IMG/VR virus record: IMGVR_UViG_3300035698_019560
Location: 1-30,983 of that record
Length of the DNA: 30,983 bases
Direction: 5' to 3' (one strand)
Source: a virus
Shown: piece by piece, positions 5,057 through 30,983 of the stretch
Layout of the letters: each line of letters opens with the position of its first letter
How positions within the stretch are numbered: position 1 is the stretch's first letter
Notes under the pieces: generated by a model
The model's database searches: none
Seen by the model: only the letters and a program-made list of their open reading frames with translations
What the model was told of the DNA's origin: nothing
Made by a program: the position numbers and the translations under genes

Positions 5057-6534
5057 AAAGAGTGAGCAAGACGGAAGTACTGCGGAATGCGATGAGCGTG
5101 GAGATGGCTGAGAAGAAATCGGCAATTCGAGATTTGATCACAAACGCCAGCTTGATGCGAAGCCAGCTGCTTGAGAAGTTGGTGGATGAGCGACGGGATA
5201 TTGACAATGAGTGTGGGTATCCCAAGGAGTTGTCTACCGCGCATTACAAGTTGATGTTTGATCGAGAAGGAATTGCTACACGGGTGGTGGGTATTTTTCC
5301 TGAGGAATCGTGGTCCACTGATCCAGCGGTCATGGAAAATGAAGACCCAAAGGAAACGGAATTTGAATTGGCGTGGAAGAGGTTGGAAGAAAAGCGGCAG
5401 TTGTTTTCTTATATGGCCAAGATTGACTTCATCAGTGGTATTGGGCGATATGGTGTCCTTCTGTTGGGGATAGATGATGGGCTTGAACTCGGAAAGCCGG
5501 TAGATGGCGTGGGCGACACTGGGGAAAAGACCGGAACGGCTGAGCATAAACTGATTTATGTTCGTGTTTTTGATGAGAGTCAAGTCAATATCAAGGAGAC
5601 GGAGAAAGACATCACCAGTCCGCGGTTTGGGAAACCGGTGTTGTATTCGATTGCTTTTGATGCCATAGCGATGAGCCGAAGTGACACGGGAGAAATAACA
5701 GCGACATCGGGACAAGAGACCTTGGTTCATTGGACTCGGATTGTTCATGTTGCGGACAATCGGTTGAGTAGTGAAATTTACGGTGTCCCACGGATGCAGA
5801 TTTTGTTTAATCGGCTCTGGGATTTGCGGAAGGTGGCTGGCGGAAGTGGGGAGATGTTTTGGAAAGGTGGTTTTCCTGGTTTCTCGTTTGAGATGGACTC
5901 GAATGCCAGACCGTTGACCACGGATGACGTGACGGATTTGCGTGCTGAGGTGGCCGCATATGCGAATGCTCTTCAACGCTATCTCACGCTGCAAGGCGTC
6001 CAAGCCAAGTCTTTGAGTCCGCAGGTAGCTGACCCCAAATCCCATATCGACATTCAAATCACCATCATCTGTATTGCGTTGGGTATTCCGAAACGAATTT
6101 TTGAGGGAAGTGAGCAGGCCAAACTTGCTTCCTCCCAGGATTCCAAGAATTGGAACAGGCGAGTAGCACGACGCCAGAACAAATATGTGAGTCCGTGTTT
6201 GGTTCGGCCTGTGGTAGAACGTCTGATTGCCTTCGGAGCACTCCCAGAGCCAACAGAGGGCTTCCGAATCGAGTGGCCTGACCTAGATGCGCCTTCTGAG
6301 GCTGATAAGGCTGATGTGTTGGCTAAGTTGGTGGAAGCCTTTGCCAAATATGTGGGCGGGAACGTCGAACAACTCATCCCACCGGAAATCTTTCTCACGA
6401 TGTTCGCGGATTTGACTACGGAGCAAGTGAAAGAGATTATGAAGGCTGCTTTGGCACGGGAAAAAGAATTGGAAGTGGATGAAGCTCAATTAGAAGTAGA
6501 ATTGAACCAGGAAGATGAATTGGAGGAAGAATAA
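5053..6534 (+). CDS. Portal protein (DUF1073-like)
   Basis: This 493-residue protein starts at the ATG that overlaps the terL stop, with GGAG 7 nt upstream. The frame extends further up, but only inside terL. Conserved portal-type segments are RVVGIFPEESW near the N-terminus, DFISGIGRYGVLLLGIDDG, HWTRIVHVADNRLSSEIYGVP, LWDLRKVAGGSGEMFWKGG, and a stem/crown helix (ALGIPKRIFEGSEQAKLASSQDSKNW). This matches the DUF1073 type of portal. The C-terminus is very acidic (about 30 residues rich in Glu). The portal forms the dodecameric ring through which DNA enters and leaves. Terminase upstream and MuF downstream fit the usual order. Confidence 0.9.
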   Translation: MKRVSKTEVLRNAMSVEMAEKKSAIRDLITNASLMRSQLLEKLVDERRDIDNECGYPKELSTAHYKLMFDREGIATRVVGIFPEESWSTDPAVMENEDPKETEFELAWKRLEEKRQLFSYMAKIDFISGIGRYGVLLLGIDDGLELGKPVDGVGDTGEKTGTAEHKLIYVRVFDESQVNIKETEKDITSPRFGKPVLYSIAFDAIAMSRSDTGEITATSGQETLVHWTRIVHVADNRLSSEIYGVPRMQILFNRLWDLRKVAGGSGEMFWKGGFPGFSFEMDSNARPLTTDDVTDLRAEVAAYANALQRYLTLQGVQAKSLSPQVADPKSHIDIQITIICIALGIPKRIFEGSEQAKLASSQDSKNWNRRVARRQNKYVSPCLVRPVVERLIAFGALPEPTEGFRIEWPDLDAPSEADKADVLAKLVEAFAKYVGGNVEQLIPPEIFLTMFADLTTEQVKEIMKAALAREKELEVDEAQLEVELNQEDELEEE

Positions 6535-6604: not shown

Positions 6605-6649
6605 CGCGTTAGTTATATCGTATTTGCGGCGGATAACTGGAGGAAGATG

Positions 6650-7966
6650 ATGAAACTGAGTGATGGTATATGGAAGAATGAGCCGTGCGTGATTGTGGGC
6701 GGTGGTCCGTCTTTGAAGGGCTTTAATTGGAGCCAACTTGAAGATTATCACACCATCGCTATCAATCGAGCATACGAACGGTTTGACCCTTCCATTATCA
6801 TCGCAGCTGACCATCGTTTCTATCGGGATATTTGGCGGCGCATCTTTGGTTTGGAGGTCAAGAAGCGGTTTGAAACCTTGGATTGTCCTAAGGTGGTTGG
6901 CGCGGCATTGAAGCGGTTCGATGGAGTTTATGACCGGCACGGGATGTTGACTTATTTCATGGCGGCAGAACCTAGGTTAGATGACTTTGCAGGGAAATTG
7001 ACGGAATCGCTGGAAGACGGATTGATGCGGAGCACTTCCACGGCTGTACCAGCCTTGAATTTAGCTTTGAATTTAGGAGCCAACCCAATCTATATGCTGG
7101 GATTTGATATGCGTCCTGATGGGAAAGGTAATACACATTTTCATGATGGTTACGGTAAATCAACTTCACGCACATTTGCCTCTCAGCGTTGCGGTTTGGA
7201 ATTGGTAGCTGCCCAGGCATGTACACGGGCACAAATAATCAATTGTTCTCTGAGTTCTGCGCTCCGGTGTTTTGAGTTCGGGAGTCTTCCTGAAGCAAGC
7301 AAGAATTGGGGCAGACATTCGGAATACGGACATGAGGAGGAACGCATGCAAGTTGAAGTAGTGGTTCCAAGTTTGAATCGACCCAAAGAATTGGAGCGGT
7401 TGAGGGAGAGCATACCAAAGGGGGTTTTGTTTTCGCCTTCTGTTGAAAAGGAACCCAGAGCACTCACTACCGCAGTGAACCAGTTGGTGAACAATAGCAC
7501 GGGTGATATAGTGGTCGTGTTAGCGGACCACGTGGTACTGGAAAACGGATGCGTTGAGAATATGGTGGAAAGTTTTCAGATGCTTTTCCCGAGTCTGGAC
7601 GGAATGATTGGGCTGAATATCTCGAACATGCCATCGCTTCAAGGCGTGCGGGAGTATTGCTTTTTCGCGTTGGGGAAGGAGTTCCTAAACCGTTTCCCAC
7701 TAGGCCGAATATTCTGTCCTGATTATTACCACTTTTATGGGGACACGGAACTGGGCGAATATGCGGTGAAGGAGAATGTCTTTTTCTTTGACGAATACGC
7801 AAAGGTTTTCACCCATCATCCAAATGCTGGAAACGCCAAACGGGATGCCACCAACAAGACGTCTCGGATACTCACTCATGTAGACGATTCGATGAGGAAA
7901 AAACGCCAAGAATTGGGCTGGCTTTGGGGCAAATCGTTTGACCTAGTGGAAGGGAGATACGGATGA
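6650..7966 (+). CDS. DUF115 (MptE-like) domain fused to a glycosyltransferase-like domain
   Basis: The first part (about residues 1-230) is DUF115-like: a Rossmann-type start VIVGGGPSL (15-23) and GANPIYMLGFDM (144-155). The second part (from Met234) begins VEVVVPSLNRPKELERLRESIP. It has STGDIVVVLADHVVLENGCV, like the GT-A fold of family 2 glycosyltransferases; the usual DxD is reduced to ADH (Asp294). The start is chosen at the second of two adjacent ATGs because GGAGG lies 6 nt away. AGGAGG stands 5 nt before Met234, so the second domain may also be made alone. DUF115 proteins are seen in flagellin glycosylation loci and phages. Here the substrate could be a virion or cell-surface sugar acceptor, which is inference only. 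The product would be cytoplasmic. Its stop overlaps the next gene. Confidence 0.8.
   Translation: MKLSDGIWKNEPCVIVGGGPSLKGFNWSQLEDYHTIAINRAYERFDPSIIIAADHRFYRDIWRRIFGLEVKKRFETLDCPKVVGAALKRFDGVYDRHGMLTYFMAAEPRLDDFAGKLTESLEDGLMRSTSTAVPALNLALNLGANPIYMLGFDMRPDGKGNTHFHDGYGKSTSRTFASQRCGLELVAAQACTRAQIINCSLSSALRCFEFGSLPEASKNWGRHSEYGHEEERMQVEVVVPSLNRPKELERLRESIPKGVLFSPSVEKEPRALTTAVNQLVNNSTGDIVVVLADHVVLENGCVENMVESFQMLFPSLDGMIGLNISNMPSLQGVREYCFFALGKEFLNRFPLGRIFCPDYYHFYGDTELGEYAVKENVFFFDEYAKVFTHHPNAGNAKRDATNKTSRILTHVDDSMRKKRQELGWLWGKSFDLVEGRYG
7335..7348 (+). promoter_or_regulatory. Internal ribosome binding site before Met234 of the DUF115-GT gene
   Basis: AGGAGG (7335-7340), 5 nt spacer and ATG (7346-7348) lie in frame inside the fusion gene exactly at the domain border. 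This is the strongest Shine-Dalgarno match I see in this part of the window. It could make a separate 205-residue glycosyltransferase-like product, or be the relic of two genes that fused. Confidence 0.6.
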
Positions 7967-16053: not shown

Positions 16054-16704
16054 ATGAAGAATTGGACGCCCAAAGCCATCTGGAATAGCAAACCGTGTTA
16101 CATTATCGGTGGTGGCCCTTCTCTGGAAAGTTTCCCCTGGGAAGTTTTGCGAGAGAGAAAAACCATTGGGTGTAATGCGGCGTGTTATCTTGGTGCGGCT
16201 GTGGCGTCTGTTCTCGTTTTTGGAGATGCCAAATTTCTTCCACAACATCGGCGTGGCGTGGAAGAATATGAGCGCCAGGGTGGTTGGGTTGTTTCTTCCG
16301 CGGCAGCCTTCCGTGATAAACGGCCACCCTGGCTCAAATTTATTCCTCGGCAGTTGAAGGGCCTGGGCATGACGGCTTTGGGGTGGAATGGGAACACGGG
16401 TTCTCTTGCCATCAACTTGGCGTGTTTGTTTGGTGCAAATCCTATCTATTTGTTGGGATTTGATATGCAGCCGTCAGGAGGACAGGGGAATTTCCACAAG
16501 GCTTACGGCACGGGAAATCTCCGTGATGCGTCATATACTCGTTTCAAAAAAGGAATGGTTGATATCAATAAGGATTTGGGTAAACTCTTTCCCGATCAAC
16601 GGGTGATTAATCTGGAAGACGATACCAGTACATTGGTTGTTTTCCCGAAGGAAAGTTTGAGGGGTCATTTCAATCTAGGAAGGGAAATTCATGATGAGAA
16701 ATAA
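16054..16704 (+). CDS. DUF115 (MptE-like) family protein
   Basis: This 216-residue protein is a second copy of the DUF115 family in the window. YIIGGGPSLESFPWE (16-30) and GANPIYLLGFDM (128-139) align with VIVGGGPSL and GANPIYMLGFDM of the fusion gene at 6650-7966. The central part (RKTIGCNAACYLG, VASVLVFGDAKFL) is the expected Rossmann-like core. There is no glycosyltransferase domain here. Members occur in flagellin glycosylation loci and as a pterin pyrophosphokinase in archaea; neither activity can be assigned here. Start has AAGGGA upstream, 3 bp after the previous stop. Overlaps the next gene by 14 nt. Confidence 0.78.
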   Translation: MKNWTPKAIWNSKPCYIIGGGPSLESFPWEVLRERKTIGCNAACYLGAAVASVLVFGDAKFLPQHRRGVEEYERQGGWVVSSAAAFRDKRPPWLKFIPRQLKGLGMTALGWNGNTGSLAINLACLFGANPIYLLGFDMQPSGGQGNFHKAYGTGNLRDASYTRFKKGMVDINKDLGKLFPDQRVINLEDDTSTLVVFPKESLRGHFNLGREIHDEK

Positions 16705-19033: not shown

Positions 19034-19456
19034 ATGGCAAGAATGGATGATGGTTTTGCAACACTGATCTCCTTCGCTGAAGACTCCGATGTTCAGATGT
19101 GGGAGAAAGAAATTACGCCTCCTGGTGTTGAGGGTGGTGGCGAAAATGACACGACCACGATGCAGAACACGAACTGGCGAACCAAGGCACCGAAGAAACT
19201 CAAGTCGCTGACTGAATCTTCGTTGACGGTGGCGTATGATCCAGCGGTGTTTGATGAAATCGTGGCGATGGTCAACACCAATCAGCAAATCACGATTACG
19301 TTCCCGGATGACTCCACATTAGTGTTCTGGGGTTGGATTGATGGATTCACACCTAATCCGATAGTGGAAGGTGAGCAGCCCACGGCCCTAGTCAAAATCA
19401 TTCCGTCCAATCAGAATGCTTCTCTTGTGGAAACTGCACCTGTACACGCTGCGTAG
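19034..19456 (+). CDS. Tail tube (major tail) protein
   Basis: This 140-residue protein starts at an ATG with AGGAAAGGAA upstream. It is beta-rich: GFATLISFAEDSDVQMWEKEITPPGVEGGG, NWRTKAPKKLKSLTESSLTVAYDP, VNTNQQITITFPDDSTLVFWGWIDGFTPNP, TALVKIIPSN. The -TPPG-ggg- start and the late beta strands fit tail tube proteins of siphoviruses. It is not followed by a sheath gene, consistent with a non-contractile tail. Followed by chaperones and tape measure, as usual. Confidence 0.8.
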   Translation: MARMDDGFATLISFAEDSDVQMWEKEITPPGVEGGGENDTTTMQNTNWRTKAPKKLKSLTESSLTVAYDPAVFDEIVAMVNTNQQITITFPDDSTLVFWGWIDGFTPNPIVEGEQPTALVKIIPSNQNASLVETAPVHAA

Positions 19457-19509: not shown

Positions 19510-19812
19510 ATGAGTGACGAAATCAGAATCACATTACAGCGCCAGGAAGTGTCGGTGGTATTGGAAGATGAAAACGGCATGGAAAAGCTGTGGAAGTTGC
19601 GCGAATTGAATGGCAAGGAACGTAACAAGTATCTCAACCAAATGACTGCGCGGATGAAAATGGGTCACAACGGGAAGGTGGTTGGAATCAAGTCATTTGA
19701 CGGATTTCAGGCTGATCTTTTGTCCCGCTGTCTTTTGGATGAGAATAATGATAAGGTGTCGGCGGATGCCATTGAGGAAATACCGGCATCTGGTCAATCT
19801 CTCCTTTTTTGA
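19510..19812 (+). CDS. Tail assembly chaperone G, zero frame
   Basis: This 100-residue protein starts at an ATG with AAAGGAAA upstream. It is G-like: EIRITLQRQEVSVVLEDENG, KLWKLRELNGKERNKYLNQMTARMKM, ADLLSRCLLDENN, EEIPASGQSLLF. It keeps the tape measure soluble and recruits tube subunits in tail assembly. The frame stops at TGA 19810-19812, directly after CTCCTTTTTT. In the +1 phase the text continues naturally as FFEKAQEMSGLDLDDDDEED, to a stop at 19877. So the full G protein seems to need a frame change in the T6 run. Confidence 0.8.
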   Translation: MSDEIRITLQRQEVSVVLEDENGMEKLWKLRELNGKERNKYLNQMTARMKMGHNGKVVGIKSFDGFQADLLSRCLLDENNDKVSADAIEEIPASGQSLLF

Positions 19813-19879
19813 GAAAGCCCAGGAGATGTCGGGGCTGGACCTAGATGATGATGATGAGGAAGACGAAAAAAACGATTGA
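19802..19879 (+). CDS. Continuation of chaperone G in the +1 frame (after T6)
   Basis: Read in this phase the codons from 19805 give FFEKAQEMSGLDLDDDDEED, then EKND and a TGA at 19877-19879. The Asp/Glu-rich end and LF-E-kA--lSGL pattern fit the C-terminus of G-type chaperones, so it belongs to the 19510 gene. It contains the canonical slippery A AAA AAC (19867-19873), in the phase used here. Either one T of six is an insertion or a +1/-2 shift happens at the T run. Confidence 0.6.
   Translation, partial: SFFEKAQEMSGLDLDDDDEEDEKND
19805..19810 (+). other. T6 run at the first chaperone frame break
   Basis: CTC CTT TTT TGA in the zero frame; with one T fewer it reads CTC CTT TTT GAG AAA and continues. 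A +1 or -2 shift, a true indel or a homopolymer error would each produce this. Confidence 0.5.
19867..19873 (+). other. Canonical -1 slippery heptamer A AAA AAC
   Basis: The heptamer lies in the exact X XXY YYZ phase of the G continuation frame (GAA AAA AAC). It falls within the only 19-nt window in which the T frame (open after the stop at 19855-19857) overlaps the G frame (stop at 19877-19879). A -1 shift here joins G to T, as in lambda G/GT. A GGTGA/TCACC stem (19882-19886 with 19915-19919) is a weak candidate stimulator. Confidence 0.8.
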
Positions 19880-20229
19880 CGGGTGAGGAGTTGCAGTGGT
19901 ATCGTTTGGCTTTTCACCTGAAGATGACAATTGAAGAAGTCCAACAGAAGACATCCTCCACGGGATTCTTGAAGTGGATATGGTTTCTGGATTGGAAAGA
20001 CACAGAAGAATTTAATCGATCAGATTCTTATTTGGCGCAAATTGCTGCGACGATAGAACAGGGTCAGGTCAAGAATCCTTCTCGTATCACGCTCCAATCT
20101 AAGATACTAGATTTCACGATTGAAAAAGGCAAGAAGAAATCTTCAGTGGATTTAGAATTGTTGTTTGAAACAACAGTTCAAAACAGTAAAAATTTTTGGT
20201 TGGGTCTGACTGGCGCAACTAGAAAATAA
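19876..20229 (+). CDS. Tail assembly chaperone T part (expressed by -1 frameshift)
   Basis: This 117-codon frame has a TTG at 19876 overlapping the G stop (TTGA), without a clear ribosome binding site. It is open in the -1 phase from the preceding stop. Read from the slippery site it makes a G-T fusion with TGEELQWYRLAFHLKMTIEEVQQKTSSTGFLKWIWFLDW, WKDTEEFNRSDSYLAQIAATIE, and a basic end. Members of this type follow the helical, acidic G part and bind the tube protein. It ends just before the tape measure gene. Confidence 0.75.
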   Translation: MTGEELQWYRLAFHLKMTIEEVQQKTSSTGFLKWIWFLDWKDTEEFNRSDSYLAQIAATIEQGQVKNPSRITLQSKILDFTIEKGKKKSSVDLELLFETTVQNSKNFWLGLTGATRK

Positions 20230-20245: not shown

Positions 20246-22864
20246 ATGTTCGGGATGAACCTTGGAACACTTTCGGTTCGGCTTACGGCCAATGCTACAA
20301 AGTTTTCCAAGGTTATTCGTCATTCTCAGAGAATGATTGATGCAACGGTCAAGAAGGCCAAGCAGATGGGACGGCAGCTGAATCGTTCTGTCACCCTTCC
20401 TTTGACGATGATTGCTGGTGCCTCTGTTGCGGCGTTTGGTTCGTTTGATGATTCCATGACCAAGTCACTTGCCATTATGGGCAACGTAAATTCGCAAATG
20501 CGCACCACGATGGAAGATACAGCCAAGAGTATTTCACGGAATTCTATCACCGCTCCGAAAGACTTAGCTGAAGCTTATTTCTTCCTGGCGTCTGCTGGTC
20601 TTTCGGCAAAGCAAGCCGTTGGCTCACTCGCCACAGTAGAAAAATTTGCTGTGGCGGGTGCATTTAATATGTCCCAGGCTACGGACTTGCTCACTGATGC
20701 ACAATCTGCGTTGGGTCTTGCCACGAAGGATTCCGTGAAGCACATGGAAAATATGACCAGGCTTTCTGATGTTTTGGTCAAGGCTAATACTTTGGCGAAT
20801 GCGAGCGTGGAACAATTTTCTCGTGCGTTGACCACAAAGGCTGGTGCGGCACTTCGTCTGTTGAACAAAGACGTTGAAGAAGGTGTGGCCGTTCTTGCGG
20901 CATTTGCAGATCAAGGCGTCAAAGATGCACAAGCAGGAGAAAAACTTCATATTGTTCTTCGTGATCTTCAACGGGCAACGATGAAGGAAACCAAGGCATG
21001 GGAACGTATGGGATTGAGCGTGTACGATGTCAATGGCAAAATGCATTCCATGGCGAATATTATCGGGCAATTGGAGCGGAAATTTGCTACAATGTCCGAT
21101 CAAGAAAAAAAGGCTGCAGCAGAGATGTTGGGCTTTCAAGACCGTTCTTTTTCTGCTCTTCAGGTGTTGTTAGGAACATCTCAAAAGATAGCTGATTATG
21201 AAGTTGCGTTGCGTCGTGCTGGAGATACCACGAAAGAGGTATCAGAAAAGCAACTTCAGTCCTTCAATAGTCAGATGAAAATTCTTTTGAACAACGTCAA
21301 GTTGGCTGGTATTTCTTTGGGGGGGGTCTTTGCGCCTTATGTAAATAAAGCAGGGAAGGCGGTAATGAAATTGGCTATCTGGTTTGAGCGTCTTTCTGAT
21401 TCGCAAAAAAAGTGGCTCACAATAGGAATGACGGTGGCAGCTGCGATGGGTCCTGCGTTGGTTGCGTTTGGATTTCTGGCGCAAGGAATCGGAGCGGTAA
21501 TAAAGTCTTTTTCCACGTTGGGATTTGTGGGGACTGCTTGGGTGGTTGCAGCTGGACTTATTGTGACTGCGGTTTTGTTAGTGGCGGATGCCTTTTTCAA
21601 GGCTGATACAGGTTTCTTGAAATTCGTCAAATCGATGAAAGTAGGTAAGTTGACGATTGAGGAAAGCATGTCTGTGACTTCGGCGTTCGTGCTTCAGGCG
21701 TGGGACACGGCCATTCATAATATCAAACTTACTTGGGAAGATTTGAAGGTGTCTGTCCTTTACATCGGTGGGGCGATTTATCGTGGGATGCTTCGTATGA
21801 GCAAAAAAGCATCCGATGCTTTCTGGGATACGGTAAAGGATATGGCGGATGTGATTCCTGGTTTGAGTCTTCTGGCTAAGAAATTGGAGAAAGTAGGGGA
21901 ACGGTCTGGGGAAGTCTATGAAGCCGCTATCAGTCAAAGTCTGGCCAAGTCAAAGCAACGGTGGAGAGATTATAACACAACGGTGGATGATCTGAACAAA
22001 GAGAACGCCAAAAAAGTAGAAGCATGGGAACTTCAACGGGGGAAGGTTCTTGCCGACAGTTTGAACAAATCCAAAAAGGATGTTCAGTCATTCGGAGATG
22101 CGGTTGAAGGCTGGTTCAAAAATACTGCGAAAGCAGCAACGGATGCGTTCAAAGATACTCCACTTGGTTCTGGTTATATTGCACCGGATTTGTCTAGTTT
22201 GGAATCGGCAGCGAAAACCCTGATCAGTGAGATGCGTTCACCATTGGAGATTTTTCAAGATCAATTCGCCAAGCTGGATGATATGTGGAACCTAGGAATG
22301 CTTGACGAGAAAACATATCATCGGGCTGCGGCTGCGTACAAGAGGGAATTGAGAGATGCGTTGGACTCCGGTCCAGTCGATGAGTTCAATAATTCTCTCG
22401 AAAAGCAAGCCAGCCTCATGGACAAACTGAAGGGCAAGGCTTCTTCCGGTAAACTTGCGTTTATGGCCTTGGGTGGGAAAAAGGGAGGCATTTCGGCCAA
22501 GCATGATTCTGCAAATGCGCTGGCCCTTCCCGGTGGTTCAAGTAGGATAGGTGGCTGGCCGCAGAAGATGGAACGTGTGATGAATCGCGTTTCCCGGTCT
22601 GCGAATGGTACGAACCCGAGAGAAATGGCATTGTTGCGTGGTAGGTTGGCTGGTACGGGGAGTACGCCTGGTTTCTTGGGTAAGGCTTACCAAGAAGGCA
22701 TCCGAAGCGATTCTCGTGGGAATCCGCGTGTTGTTGGCAAGGCGCATATGGACCGTGGAGTGGGCACAAATATCTATCGTCCACAGAACTGGGAAGAGAT
22801 AGTTGGGTTTTTGAAGCAGATTTCAATTAACACAGGCCAAGGCACACCTGCGGTGGTAACATAA
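20246..22864 (+). CDS. Tail tape measure protein
   Basis: This 872-residue protein starts at an ATG with AGGAG about 10 nt upstream. It has the TP901-type N-terminal half: LGTLSVRLTANATKFSKVIRHSQRM, FGSFDDSMTKSLAIMGN, SRNSITAPKDLAEAYFFLASAGLSAKQAV, EKFAVAGAFNMSQATDLLTDAQ. Two hydrophobic stretches (about 389-450) follow: WLTIGMTVAAAMGPALVAFGFLAQG and TAWVVAAGLIVTAVLLVADAFF. A coiled region (about 560-620) and a Gly/Ser-rich end complete it. The protein spans the tail lumen and fixes tail length; 872 residues imply about 130 nm. It contains a G8 run at 21319-21326, but the frame is intact there. I see no peptidase or lysozyme domain in the C-terminal half. Confidence 0.93.
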   Translation: MFGMNLGTLSVRLTANATKFSKVIRHSQRMIDATVKKAKQMGRQLNRSVTLPLTMIAGASVAAFGSFDDSMTKSLAIMGNVNSQMRTTMEDTAKSISRNSITAPKDLAEAYFFLASAGLSAKQAVGSLATVEKFAVAGAFNMSQATDLLTDAQSALGLATKDSVKHMENMTRLSDVLVKANTLANASVEQFSRALTTKAGAALRLLNKDVEEGVAVLAAFADQGVKDAQAGEKLHIVLRDLQRATMKETKAWERMGLSVYDVNGKMHSMANIIGQLERKFATMSDQEKKAAAEMLGFQDRSFSALQVLLGTSQKIADYEVALRRAGDTTKEVSEKQLQSFNSQMKILLNNVKLAGISLGGVFAPYVNKAGKAVMKLAIWFERLSDSQKKWLTIGMTVAAAMGPALVAFGFLAQGIGAVIKSFSTLGFVGTAWVVAAGLIVTAVLLVADAFFKADTGFLKFVKSMKVGKLTIEESMSVTSAFVLQAWDTAIHNIKLTWEDLKVSVLYIGGAIYRGMLRMSKKASDAFWDTVKDMADVIPGLSLLAKKLEKVGERSGEVYEAAISQSLAKSKQRWRDYNTTVDDLNKENAKKVEAWELQRGKVLADSLNKSKKDVQSFGDAVEGWFKNTAKAATDAFKDTPLGSGYIAPDLSSLESAAKTLISEMRSPLEIFQDQFAKLDDMWNLGMLDEKTYHRAAAAYKRELRDALDSGPVDEFNNSLEKQASLMDKLKGKASSGKLAFMALGGKKGGISAKHDSANALALPGGSSRIGGWPQKMERVMNRVSRSANGTNPREMALLRGRLAGTGSTPGFLGKAYQEGIRSDSRGNPRVVGKAHMDRGVGTNIYRPQNWEEIVGFLKQISINTGQGTPAVVT

Positions 22865-28404: not shown

Positions 28405-30983
28405 TGAAAAAAATACTGGTTTTTTTGATGCTTTTGAGCACGGTTGCGGTGGCGCAACTTCCTCCCAATTCCTGGGAAGACACCATCTTCCAAGATGACC
28501 ATACGGCTGCATTTGGAGACGATGAAGATTTCGCTTGGGTTTATAATACGGGTGATGCCCGTTTTGAATTACGGGATTCCGCTTCCAATGTGCTTCTTCA
28601 CATGACAGATGGCGGTAGCACGGTTTCTATCACGGTCAATGGGTCTATTACAGCCACTACTCTTTCGGGCACGTTCTCACCAACCCTAGTGGATTTGCCA
28701 GATGGTAATGGGACAATACTTTTTGGTGTGGATGATGATGTCCAAGTAGGTTACGATGAGACTACGGATGATCGACTGGAATGGGATAACGGAACTGATT
28801 TATTGATGTGGCTTGAAGACATGGGGGATACCACAGGGAAACTGGGGGTCAATGGGTCTATTACAGCCACAAGTCTTATCACAACCCAGAACATTGGCGT
28901 GTCCACTGATACAGATTTGGTACAGCTCTCGAATGATACAGTAGATGTAAATGGTGATTTGATTGTGTCGGGGACTATCTCAGGAACTATTGCTGGCACC
29001 ATCACTCCGGCTGTTTTGGATTTAGGTGATGGTAATGGAACGATTCTTTTTGGGGCAGATGATGACATTCAGGCAGGATACGATGAAGCAGGGCAAGACC
29101 GGCTGGAATGGGATAATGGAACGAATCTGCTGGGCTGGCTGAAAGATGAAGGTACTACGGGAACGATTGGTGTAACGGAAGGTTTCTTGGGTCCTCAGAT
29201 TGGGCCAGATGGTGATGCAGATTTGGTCAGTTTTTCGGCTGGTGTGGTTACTATCGCTGGAGCAATAAATGTGACGGGAAACGTGATTGGTGGAGGATTG
29301 GTCACAGCTCAGAATATTGGCGTGGTAGCTGACTATAATGTACTTGAGCTTGCGGCCAATACAGTGACGGTGACGGGAGCCACGGTTGCGACATTGAATG
29401 TGGGCGTGGCTGGAACGGCTTATGGTGCGATACAGGCGATGGGCGATGGTGATGTTGTTGGCGGACGTCTATGGCTTGATAATGCTGCGAATGAAAGCGG
29501 AACAGCGGCCAATTATCAGATGGTGGCTGATGATGATGTTTTGCTTTTGGGACCGGATACGGATACGGATGCTTTTCAATTTGAGGCGGATGGGGATTTC
29601 CTTGCGGCTGGGGACATCGTATCGGCAACGCAAATGACCACTCCGCAAATTGGTCCAAGCGGAGACGATGATTTGATTGCATTGGCGAGTGGGACTGCGA
29701 CAATAAATGGTACGGCTGCGGTCACGACGCAAATCAACGTTCCGCAAATCGGTCCAAGTGGTGATAATGATTTGCTGGTGTTGGCGAGTGCGGCATTAAC
29801 GGTGAATGGTACTGTGACGGGAACCAAATTGTTAGTTCCGACAGCCGGTTACGTTGGCACGACAGCAGACGATGATTTGATGCAATTGGGTTCCAATATT
29901 GTGGTGGTGACTGGGGCTTTGCAAACTTCGTCCACCGTCCTAGGACAAGGCGGACTGCTTGGACCTTCTTGTGGTCCGGCTGACGATACTGATTTGATTG
30001 ATCTGGTAAATGGAACAGCCACAGTAAACGGGGAATTGATTACAACAGGTGACGTTGACGTGCAAGACGGAAACGTCAAAAACTCCACCGGACATTTGAG
30101 AGTGCAGGCAGCAGCGGCATCAAGCCTTTATCTGGACGGCGGGGTGCAAGCCATATGGCGCGATGCAGGCGACAGCTATGCAGCCCGCGCGTACCTGGAC
30201 TATGACGATGGGGACTTTTTCGCCACAGGAGACCTTGAAACAATCGCCGACAAACCGGGAGTGATTTTCCGGGATATTAGTTCCGGTGCGTATGATTATC
30301 GCTTTGGTGCAGATACTCACAAATTGTATCTCAGTGTAGATATGGATGATGACAATGCACGAGATGCAAGTGAGAATTTTGATGATGACATTATCATTGA
30401 ATATAGCACTGGTACAAATACCATTCTCATCGATAACCAAGCCTATTACGCAGCGGAACTCGTGGGTGGCGGAGACCAGGCGCTGTTGGGAATTGACAGC
30501 CTAGATAATACGCAACTGCGTTGTGATACTGGTGACGCAATTACACTCTACGAAGAGGCTGCGATGATCGCCAGCTTTTCGCAAACAACCGGGATTGTCC
30601 ATTACGCAAATCTGACCGCAGTGGATGTAATTGTTGGCGGTGGTGATGTGACGTCCCCGAACGACCTGACCCTGAATCCAGGTGACGACTTGGTGCTGGC
30701 GTCCGGGGATAATTTTGGTCTTGGCACAGGGGCACCTGACAACATACTTCATGTCTATGCAGGTTCTGCCGGTGCGGTGTCGGCCTACACTTACACGGAC
30801 ATGACGATTGAGGACGACGACCATGCGGGTTTGCAGTTTTTGTGTCCGAGTGATAAGGCTGTCTATATCATGTTTGGTGACCCAACGGAAGAATATGCGG
30901 GTTACATCAAATATGACCATACACTCAACTACCTGATGTGGAGAACTAATGGGGCGACGGCTGCTACGCTAAGTTCTGGTGGA
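28404..30983 (+). CDS. Tail fibre-like repeat protein with Sec signal peptide, partial (runs off the right edge)
   Basis: The frame opens at ATG 28404, overlapping the previous stop, and remains open for 860 codons to the window end. The N-terminus MKKILVFLMLLSTVAVAQ is a textbook signal peptide (n-region KK, hydrophobic core, AVA cleavage site). Then follow beta-rich repeats: GNGTILFG, QVGYDE, RLEWDNGT, VNGSITATSL. A 109-residue unit is repeated (28704 and 29031). Further on QIGPSGDDDLIALASG and QIGPSGDNDLLVLASA repeat. The last 60 residues (MTIEDDDHAGLQFLCPSD, VYIMFGDPTEEYAGYIKYDH, NYLMWRTNGATAATL) resemble the region just before the self-cleaving intramolecular chaperone (peptidase S74) of tail fibres, which would lie outside the window. 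It is probably the receptor-binding fibre; the signal peptide is unexpected. Confidence 0.8.
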   Translation, partial: MKKILVFLMLLSTVAVAQLPPNSWEDTIFQDDHTAAFGDDEDFAWVYNTGDARFELRDSASNVLLHMTDGGSTVSITVNGSITATTLSGTFSPTLVDLPDGNGTILFGVDDDVQVGYDETTDDRLEWDNGTDLLMWLEDMGDTTGKLGVNGSITATSLITTQNIGVSTDTDLVQLSNDTVDVNGDLIVSGTISGTIAGTITPAVLDLGDGNGTILFGADDDIQAGYDEAGQDRLEWDNGTNLLGWLKDEGTTGTIGVTEGFLGPQIGPDGDADLVSFSAGVVTIAGAINVTGNVIGGGLVTAQNIGVVADYNVLELAANTVTVTGATVATLNVGVAGTAYGAIQAMGDGDVVGGRLWLDNAANESGTAANYQMVADDDVLLLGPDTDTDAFQFEADGDFLAAGDIVSATQMTTPQIGPSGDDDLIALASGTATINGTAAVTTQINVPQIGPSGDNDLLVLASAALTVNGTVTGTKLLVPTAGYVGTTADDDLMQLGSNIVVVTGALQTSSTVLGQGGLLGPSCGPADDTDLIDLVNGTATVNGELITTGDVDVQDGNVKNSTGHLRVQAAAASSLYLDGGVQAIWRDAGDSYAARAYLDYDDGDFFATGDLETIADKPGVIFRDISSGAYDYRFGADTHKLYLSVDMDDDNARDASENFDDDIIIEYSTGTNTILIDNQAYYAAELVGGGDQALLGIDSLDNTQLRCDTGDAITLYEEAAMIASFSQTTGIVHYANLTAVDVIVGGGDVTSPNDLTLNPGDDLVLASGDNFGLGTGAPDNILHVYAGSAGAVSAYTYTDMTIEDDDHAGLQFLCPSDKAVYIMFGDPTEEYAGYIKYDHTLNYLMWRTNGATAATLSSGG
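28704..29357 (+). repeat. 109-residue repeat unit in the fibre gene
   Basis: GGTAATG begins at 28704 and again at 29031, 327 bp (109 codons) apart. Both copies read GNGTILFG, DDD-Q-GYDE, DRLEWDNGT-LL, WL-D-G, then the texts diverge, each later reaching QNIGV. It points to internal duplication of a fibre shaft segment. Confidence 0.7.

Follow-up and report, generated by a model that had tools for sequence, protein, structure and literature searches.

Two frame changes or one? A lambda-type G/GT tail-chaperone gene with a probable stray T in the record of an uncultivated virus

The question raised by this locus is whether the tail assembly chaperone gene of an uncultivated virus is read with two successive changes of frame or with a single one. 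The window, that is, the whole stretch of DNA analysed, is the IMG/VR virus record IMGVR_UViG_3300035698_019560 (30,983 bases, 47% G+C). An ATG at position 19510, preceded by the SD-like sequence AAAGGAAA, opens a frame (frame 0) of 100 amino acids that ends with ...PASGQSLLF and is closed by a TGA at 19810-19812; the run of six T residues at 19805-19810 (T6) is read in this frame as CTT TTT TGA. In the +1 frame, the same run is read as TTT TTT GAG AAA GCC CAG... (FFEKAQEMSGLDLDDDDEEDEKND), and this frame proceeds for 22 codons past T6 to the slippery heptamer A AAA AAC before reaching its own TGA at 19877-19879. A slip of -1 at the heptamer leads back into frame 0, whose open stretch up to the TAA at 20227-20229 is T; T is thus placed in the -1 frame relative to the C-terminal frame of G and, owing to the extra base, in frame 0 relative to the recorded G N-terminus. 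The initial annotation had correctly described a G that stops after 100 codons at T6, and had left the cause of the break between a homopolymer artefact and recoding. The comparison with relatives reported here makes it very probable that a single programmed -1 shift operates in this gene and that the extra T residue is an error or a mutation. The features on which the argument rests are as follows:

19034-19456, + strand: tail tube protein (Pfam Phage_TTP_12, below cut-off; anchor of 80 fetched loci, in which identity is 53-78%)
19510-19812, + strand: G, tail assembly chaperone, zero-frame product as recorded (100 amino acids; TGA directly after T6)
19805-19810, + strand: T6 run, break of the G frame (relatives are single-framed here; 7 read CTT TTT GA, with T5)
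19811-19879, + strand: normal C-terminal tail of G, EKAQEMSGLDLDDDDEEDEKND, with stop TGA at 19877-19879 (+1 frame, displaced by the extra T; aligns with the in-frame C-terminus of relatives)
19867-19873, + strand: A AAA AAC slippery heptamer, -1 frameshift site (9 bases upstream of the long-G stop; same class and same place in nearly all relatives)
19882-19918, + strand: stem-loop, likely -1 stimulator (arms 19882-19893 and 19907-19918; minimum free energy structure and 59-sequence comparison)
19873-20229, + strand: T, domain of GT made only by frameshifting (reached through the -1 shift; tail protein of PHROG 337, E 1.9e-6)
20246-22864, + strand: tail tape measure protein (PHROG 1533, E 5.1e-59)

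The G-T pair lies downstream of the tail tube gene and directly upstream of the tape measure gene, i.e., in the lambda-type order, and no sequence similarity was found for G in Pfam or PHROGs. As regards the rest of the window, the genes at 6647-7966 and 16054-16704 sit within the head module, amid portal, Mu F-like and capsid/tail genes, and show weak similarity to MptE-like 6-hydroxymethylpterin diphosphokinase, glycosyltransferase and (PHROG) alpha-2,3-sialyltransferase. A pentapeptide-repeat gene (2194-2805, - strand; Pfam Pentapeptide, 1.5e-36) is located at the edge of the morphogenesis module, and about 2.5 kb past the last tail gene (28405-30983) are devoid of long + strand ORFs, the minus-strand ORFs being short; three of the latter were scanned and gave no match above the Pfam cut-off.

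Neither G alone nor the tape measure alone, used as single-sequence queries, recovered relatives in viral contigs, and a blastn search of the G-T region against named phages gave no match. Loci were fetched through the major capsid protein (53), through a degenerate site pattern (5 more) and through alignment of the tail tube protein (80 viral-contig loci and one archaeal MAG locus). After the removal of duplicates, 69 distinct relatives with a detectable T were retained, from viral contigs and the one archaeal MAG. The scan of cellular genome contigs yielded a single locus, L140, the sole cellular-genome match of the tail module, which belongs to a MAG labelled 'archaeon'. Since, in addition, the best named matches of the tape measure protein include haloarchaeal tailed viruses (HJTV-4, 2e-40), the host of this clade may be archaeal. 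In three of the loci (L019:13578-14490, L020:5477-6389 and L021:7131-7979), the tail tube gene is present as two tandem diverged copies.

The organization of G in these relatives is quite homogeneous. In 68 of the 70 regions, the window counted among them, a single G frame leads without interruption into the -1 site, over at least 85 codons or as far as the contig reaches; the exceptions are the window itself and L033. In the latter (5269-5656), G is broken elsewhere, near codon 65, with a further stop shortly afterwards, the A AAA AAC and T that follow being normal; these breaks are probably assembly errors or the mark of a decayed copy. At the place of T6 the frame breaks in none of the 69 distinct relatives, so that the conservation expected of a programmed +1 site is not found. 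The motif at this place, recognisable in 56 distinct relatives, mostly encodes Leu-Phe, and seven of them have CTT TTT (T5) followed directly by GA, including the nearest ones, L057 (60% identity in G) and L059 (59%). Moreover, a scan of the viral contigs with the pattern CTTTTT N{0,1} GARAARGCNCARGAR, which accepts either T5 or T6, matched five contigs, all of T5 length, four of which carry the match in a G gene. The extra T is therefore not a conserved site; with the nearest relatives about 60% identical in G, the comparison does not fix the base count of the phage itself. Close relatives with five T residues and a single G frame, named beforehand by the initial annotation as the refutation of its own proposal, have in this way come to light.

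The G of the window shares at most 60% identity with that of its relatives across the full 100 amino acids (tblastn). The 22-codon tail beyond T6 can be matched, better than by chance, to the G C-terminus of both L057 and L059 (59%, E 0.002), and six of the seven base differences from L057 in its first ten codons fall at third positions. Since the differences are mostly of this kind, the stretch after T6 must have been under selection as a coding region that shares the frame of G. Judged from this alignment, the 22 codons are the usual G C-terminus of the family, as had been proposed for the +1 phase on the basis of the window, and the extra T accordingly disrupts a conserved frame.

As for the second site, the heptamer is A AAA AAC in 54 and G GGA AAC in 11 of the 70 regions (window included). 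T, for which identity with relatives reaches 58%, occupies the -1 frame of G wherever both were detected in a relative, L033 excepted; an independent start of T was considered and rejected, the first TTG (19876) having no SD. A stem-loop begins 8 bases past the heptamer. In an ungapped comparison of 59 sequences, its register pairs far better than any register slid by 1-4 columns, and the pairing was reached in 0 of 1000 shuffles of synonymous codons within columns, a control that keeps the amino acids but not the relatedness of the sequences. The fold downstream of the -1 site computed on the window alone is not significant by itself (z -0.7), and the support for the stem-loop therefore comes entirely from the comparison across relatives. 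The stem-loop is of the type GGTGAGGAG.../...TCTCACC (window 19882-19918 and 59 relatives); another register, closer in (GGCGAG/CTCGCC), is apparently in use in some subclades, and the exact stem should accordingly be regarded as a predicted one. On these comparative grounds, a real and ordinary -1 site is well supported by the conserved heptamer and the stem-loop, the latter being a likely -1 stimulator. The assignment of G and T to a tail-chaperone pair with the usual lambda-type -1 site is supported by the conserved heptamer class and by the stem-loop.

How, then, should the break at T6 be explained? A tempting idea, one of the two raised in the initial annotation, is that of a tandem programmed recoding, in which a +1 (or -2) shift at U UUU UGA would give long G and a subsequent -1 shift at A AAA AAC would give GT, with three product levels (short G, long G and GT). 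It draws some strength from the fact that the +1 frame goes on as the conserved G tail, and from the chemistry of the site: U UUU UGA would be a plausible +1 site, with perfect re-pairing of tRNA-Phe beside a stop codon, and the slow A-site codon is there (UUU followed by UGA, with UUU as the +1 codon). Any T inserted within CTT TTT GA, however, would yield the same UUU-UGA arrangement. Shifts of +1 and -2 are, moreover, each used singly in tail and other phage genes (Listeria phages, Mu and probably HSTV-2; PMC5009743). Against this stand the absence of the break from all 69 relatives and the lack of any +1 stimulator: no SD-like purine tract was found in the 20 bases upstream of T6 (GCATCTGGTCAATCTCTCC), and the structure downstream of it is not significant (z -1.4, 16 of 200 shuffles being as stable). 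GT would also require both rare events, and its level would be the product of two efficiencies. A second recoding event at T6 is, in our opinion, very improbable, and the corresponding claim finds no support here. No tandem +1/-1 tail-chaperone gene was found in the literature searched; if T6 were real and used, this would be the first one known to us. Even less credit, close to none, can be given to a transcriptional slippage at T6 by which some of the mRNA would regain the frame. A homopolymer run does sit at the break, but programmed cases as a rule require at least eight identical bases in a row, or a combination of two runs (PMC3711429), other T6 and T7 runs of the window lie inside open genes, and T6 is not conserved in the relatives. 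Readthrough of the TGA that closes G was also considered and rejected, frame 0 containing four successive TGA codons at 19843-19854.

The choice is then between an error in the record and a genuine change in the virus. T retains its ORF though nothing else would translate it, which is in favour of both. In a study carried out with GeneTack, frame breaks found in a single member with intact homologues form the class put down to sequencing errors or recent indels (PMC3711429). In metagenome contigs, homopolymer errors were reported to affect about 0.3-1.0% of the genes with Illumina data and 2.1-2.8% with 454 data (PMC3277595); at these rates, the chance of at least one homopolymer break in 28 genes is 9-55%, so that a single broken gene is no surprise in a contig of this kind. 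A generally low quality of the contig was rejected, since no other + strand frame break was found in the window by comparison with relatives, the four pair matches being all antisense shadows; nor is homopolymer noise general in it, because the frames stay open across 17 further homopolymer runs (6-8 bases) that lie within called genes. These same two observations make room for a true recent mutation, namely one T gained by replication slippage at T5 in the sampled phage or in a decaying prophage, with long G and GT abolished and no recoding at all. The position at the 3' end, which for a singleton frameshift somewhat favours an indel over a sequencing error (PMC3711429), points in the same direction, and L033 tells us that broken G genes do occur in these collections. 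Nevertheless, lambda tail assembly needs a balanced G:GT ratio (Xu et al. 2013, as cited in PMC5009743), and a fixed T6 should therefore be lethal. The remainder of the morphogenesis module appears intact. The mutation would, furthermore, have to be the assembly consensus. On balance, we consider a genuine recent mutation rather unlikely, though clearly less so than any recoding at T6, and a homopolymer error of the assembled contig probable. Of the two causes envisaged in the initial annotation, the artefact is thus retained as the best reading; a genuine recent indel is less likely.

On this reading, we are dealing with a G/GT chaperone gene of the ordinary lambda type, from an uncultivated siphovirus-like clade, with one stray T in the record. 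Only one programmed shift, of -1 at A AAA AAC, would take part in its expression, and the downstream stem-loop probably aids this shift: ribosomes would make mostly G, of about 122 amino acids and ending with ...EKND, while a minority would slip by -1 and produce GT, whose T domain might link the tape measure to the tail-tube subunits. These functions are assigned by analogy with lambda, where G binds the tape measure and T recruits the tube subunits (PMC5009743). The claim of tandem recoding, however tempting, is thereby set aside as unsupported, and a clean lambda-type -1 module, made up of a heptamer and a conserved stem-loop, is documented in uncultivated tailed viruses that form a broad clade. 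More generally, an indel in a homopolymer run of a metagenomic contig can be mistaken for recoding, and in most such cases a single comparison with relatives is enough to decide.

Shifts of +1 or -2 can occur in phage structural genes, as in Listeria PSA, where the capsid and tail shaft genes use +1, and in Mu, which uses -2 (PMC5009743); in these phages, however, the shift is single and a functional signal, whereas the first break of the window is confined to one record and lacks stimulators. With the tail chaperones of the haloarchaeal tailed viruses Hardycor1 and HSTV-2, the window shares the gene order and the logic of a -1 heptamer (G GGA AAT in Hardycor1, PMC7911831; the HSTV-2 shift is probably +1, PMC5009743), but the searches made brought out no relationship of its G and T to theirs. 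A further parallel is lambda G/GT itself, where, according to the work of Xu, Hendrix and Duda (2004, 2013) as cited in PMC7911831 and PMC5009743, two overlapping ORFs likewise lie between the tail tube and the tape measure. In both cases, an X XXY YYZ heptamer is located near the end of G, and T has no convincing start codon; in the window it is set in the -1 frame relative to the C-terminal frame of G. The lambda heptamer is G GGA AAG, whereas that of the window is A AAA AAC, and the C-terminus of G is, in the record of the window, shifted out of frame by one extra T.
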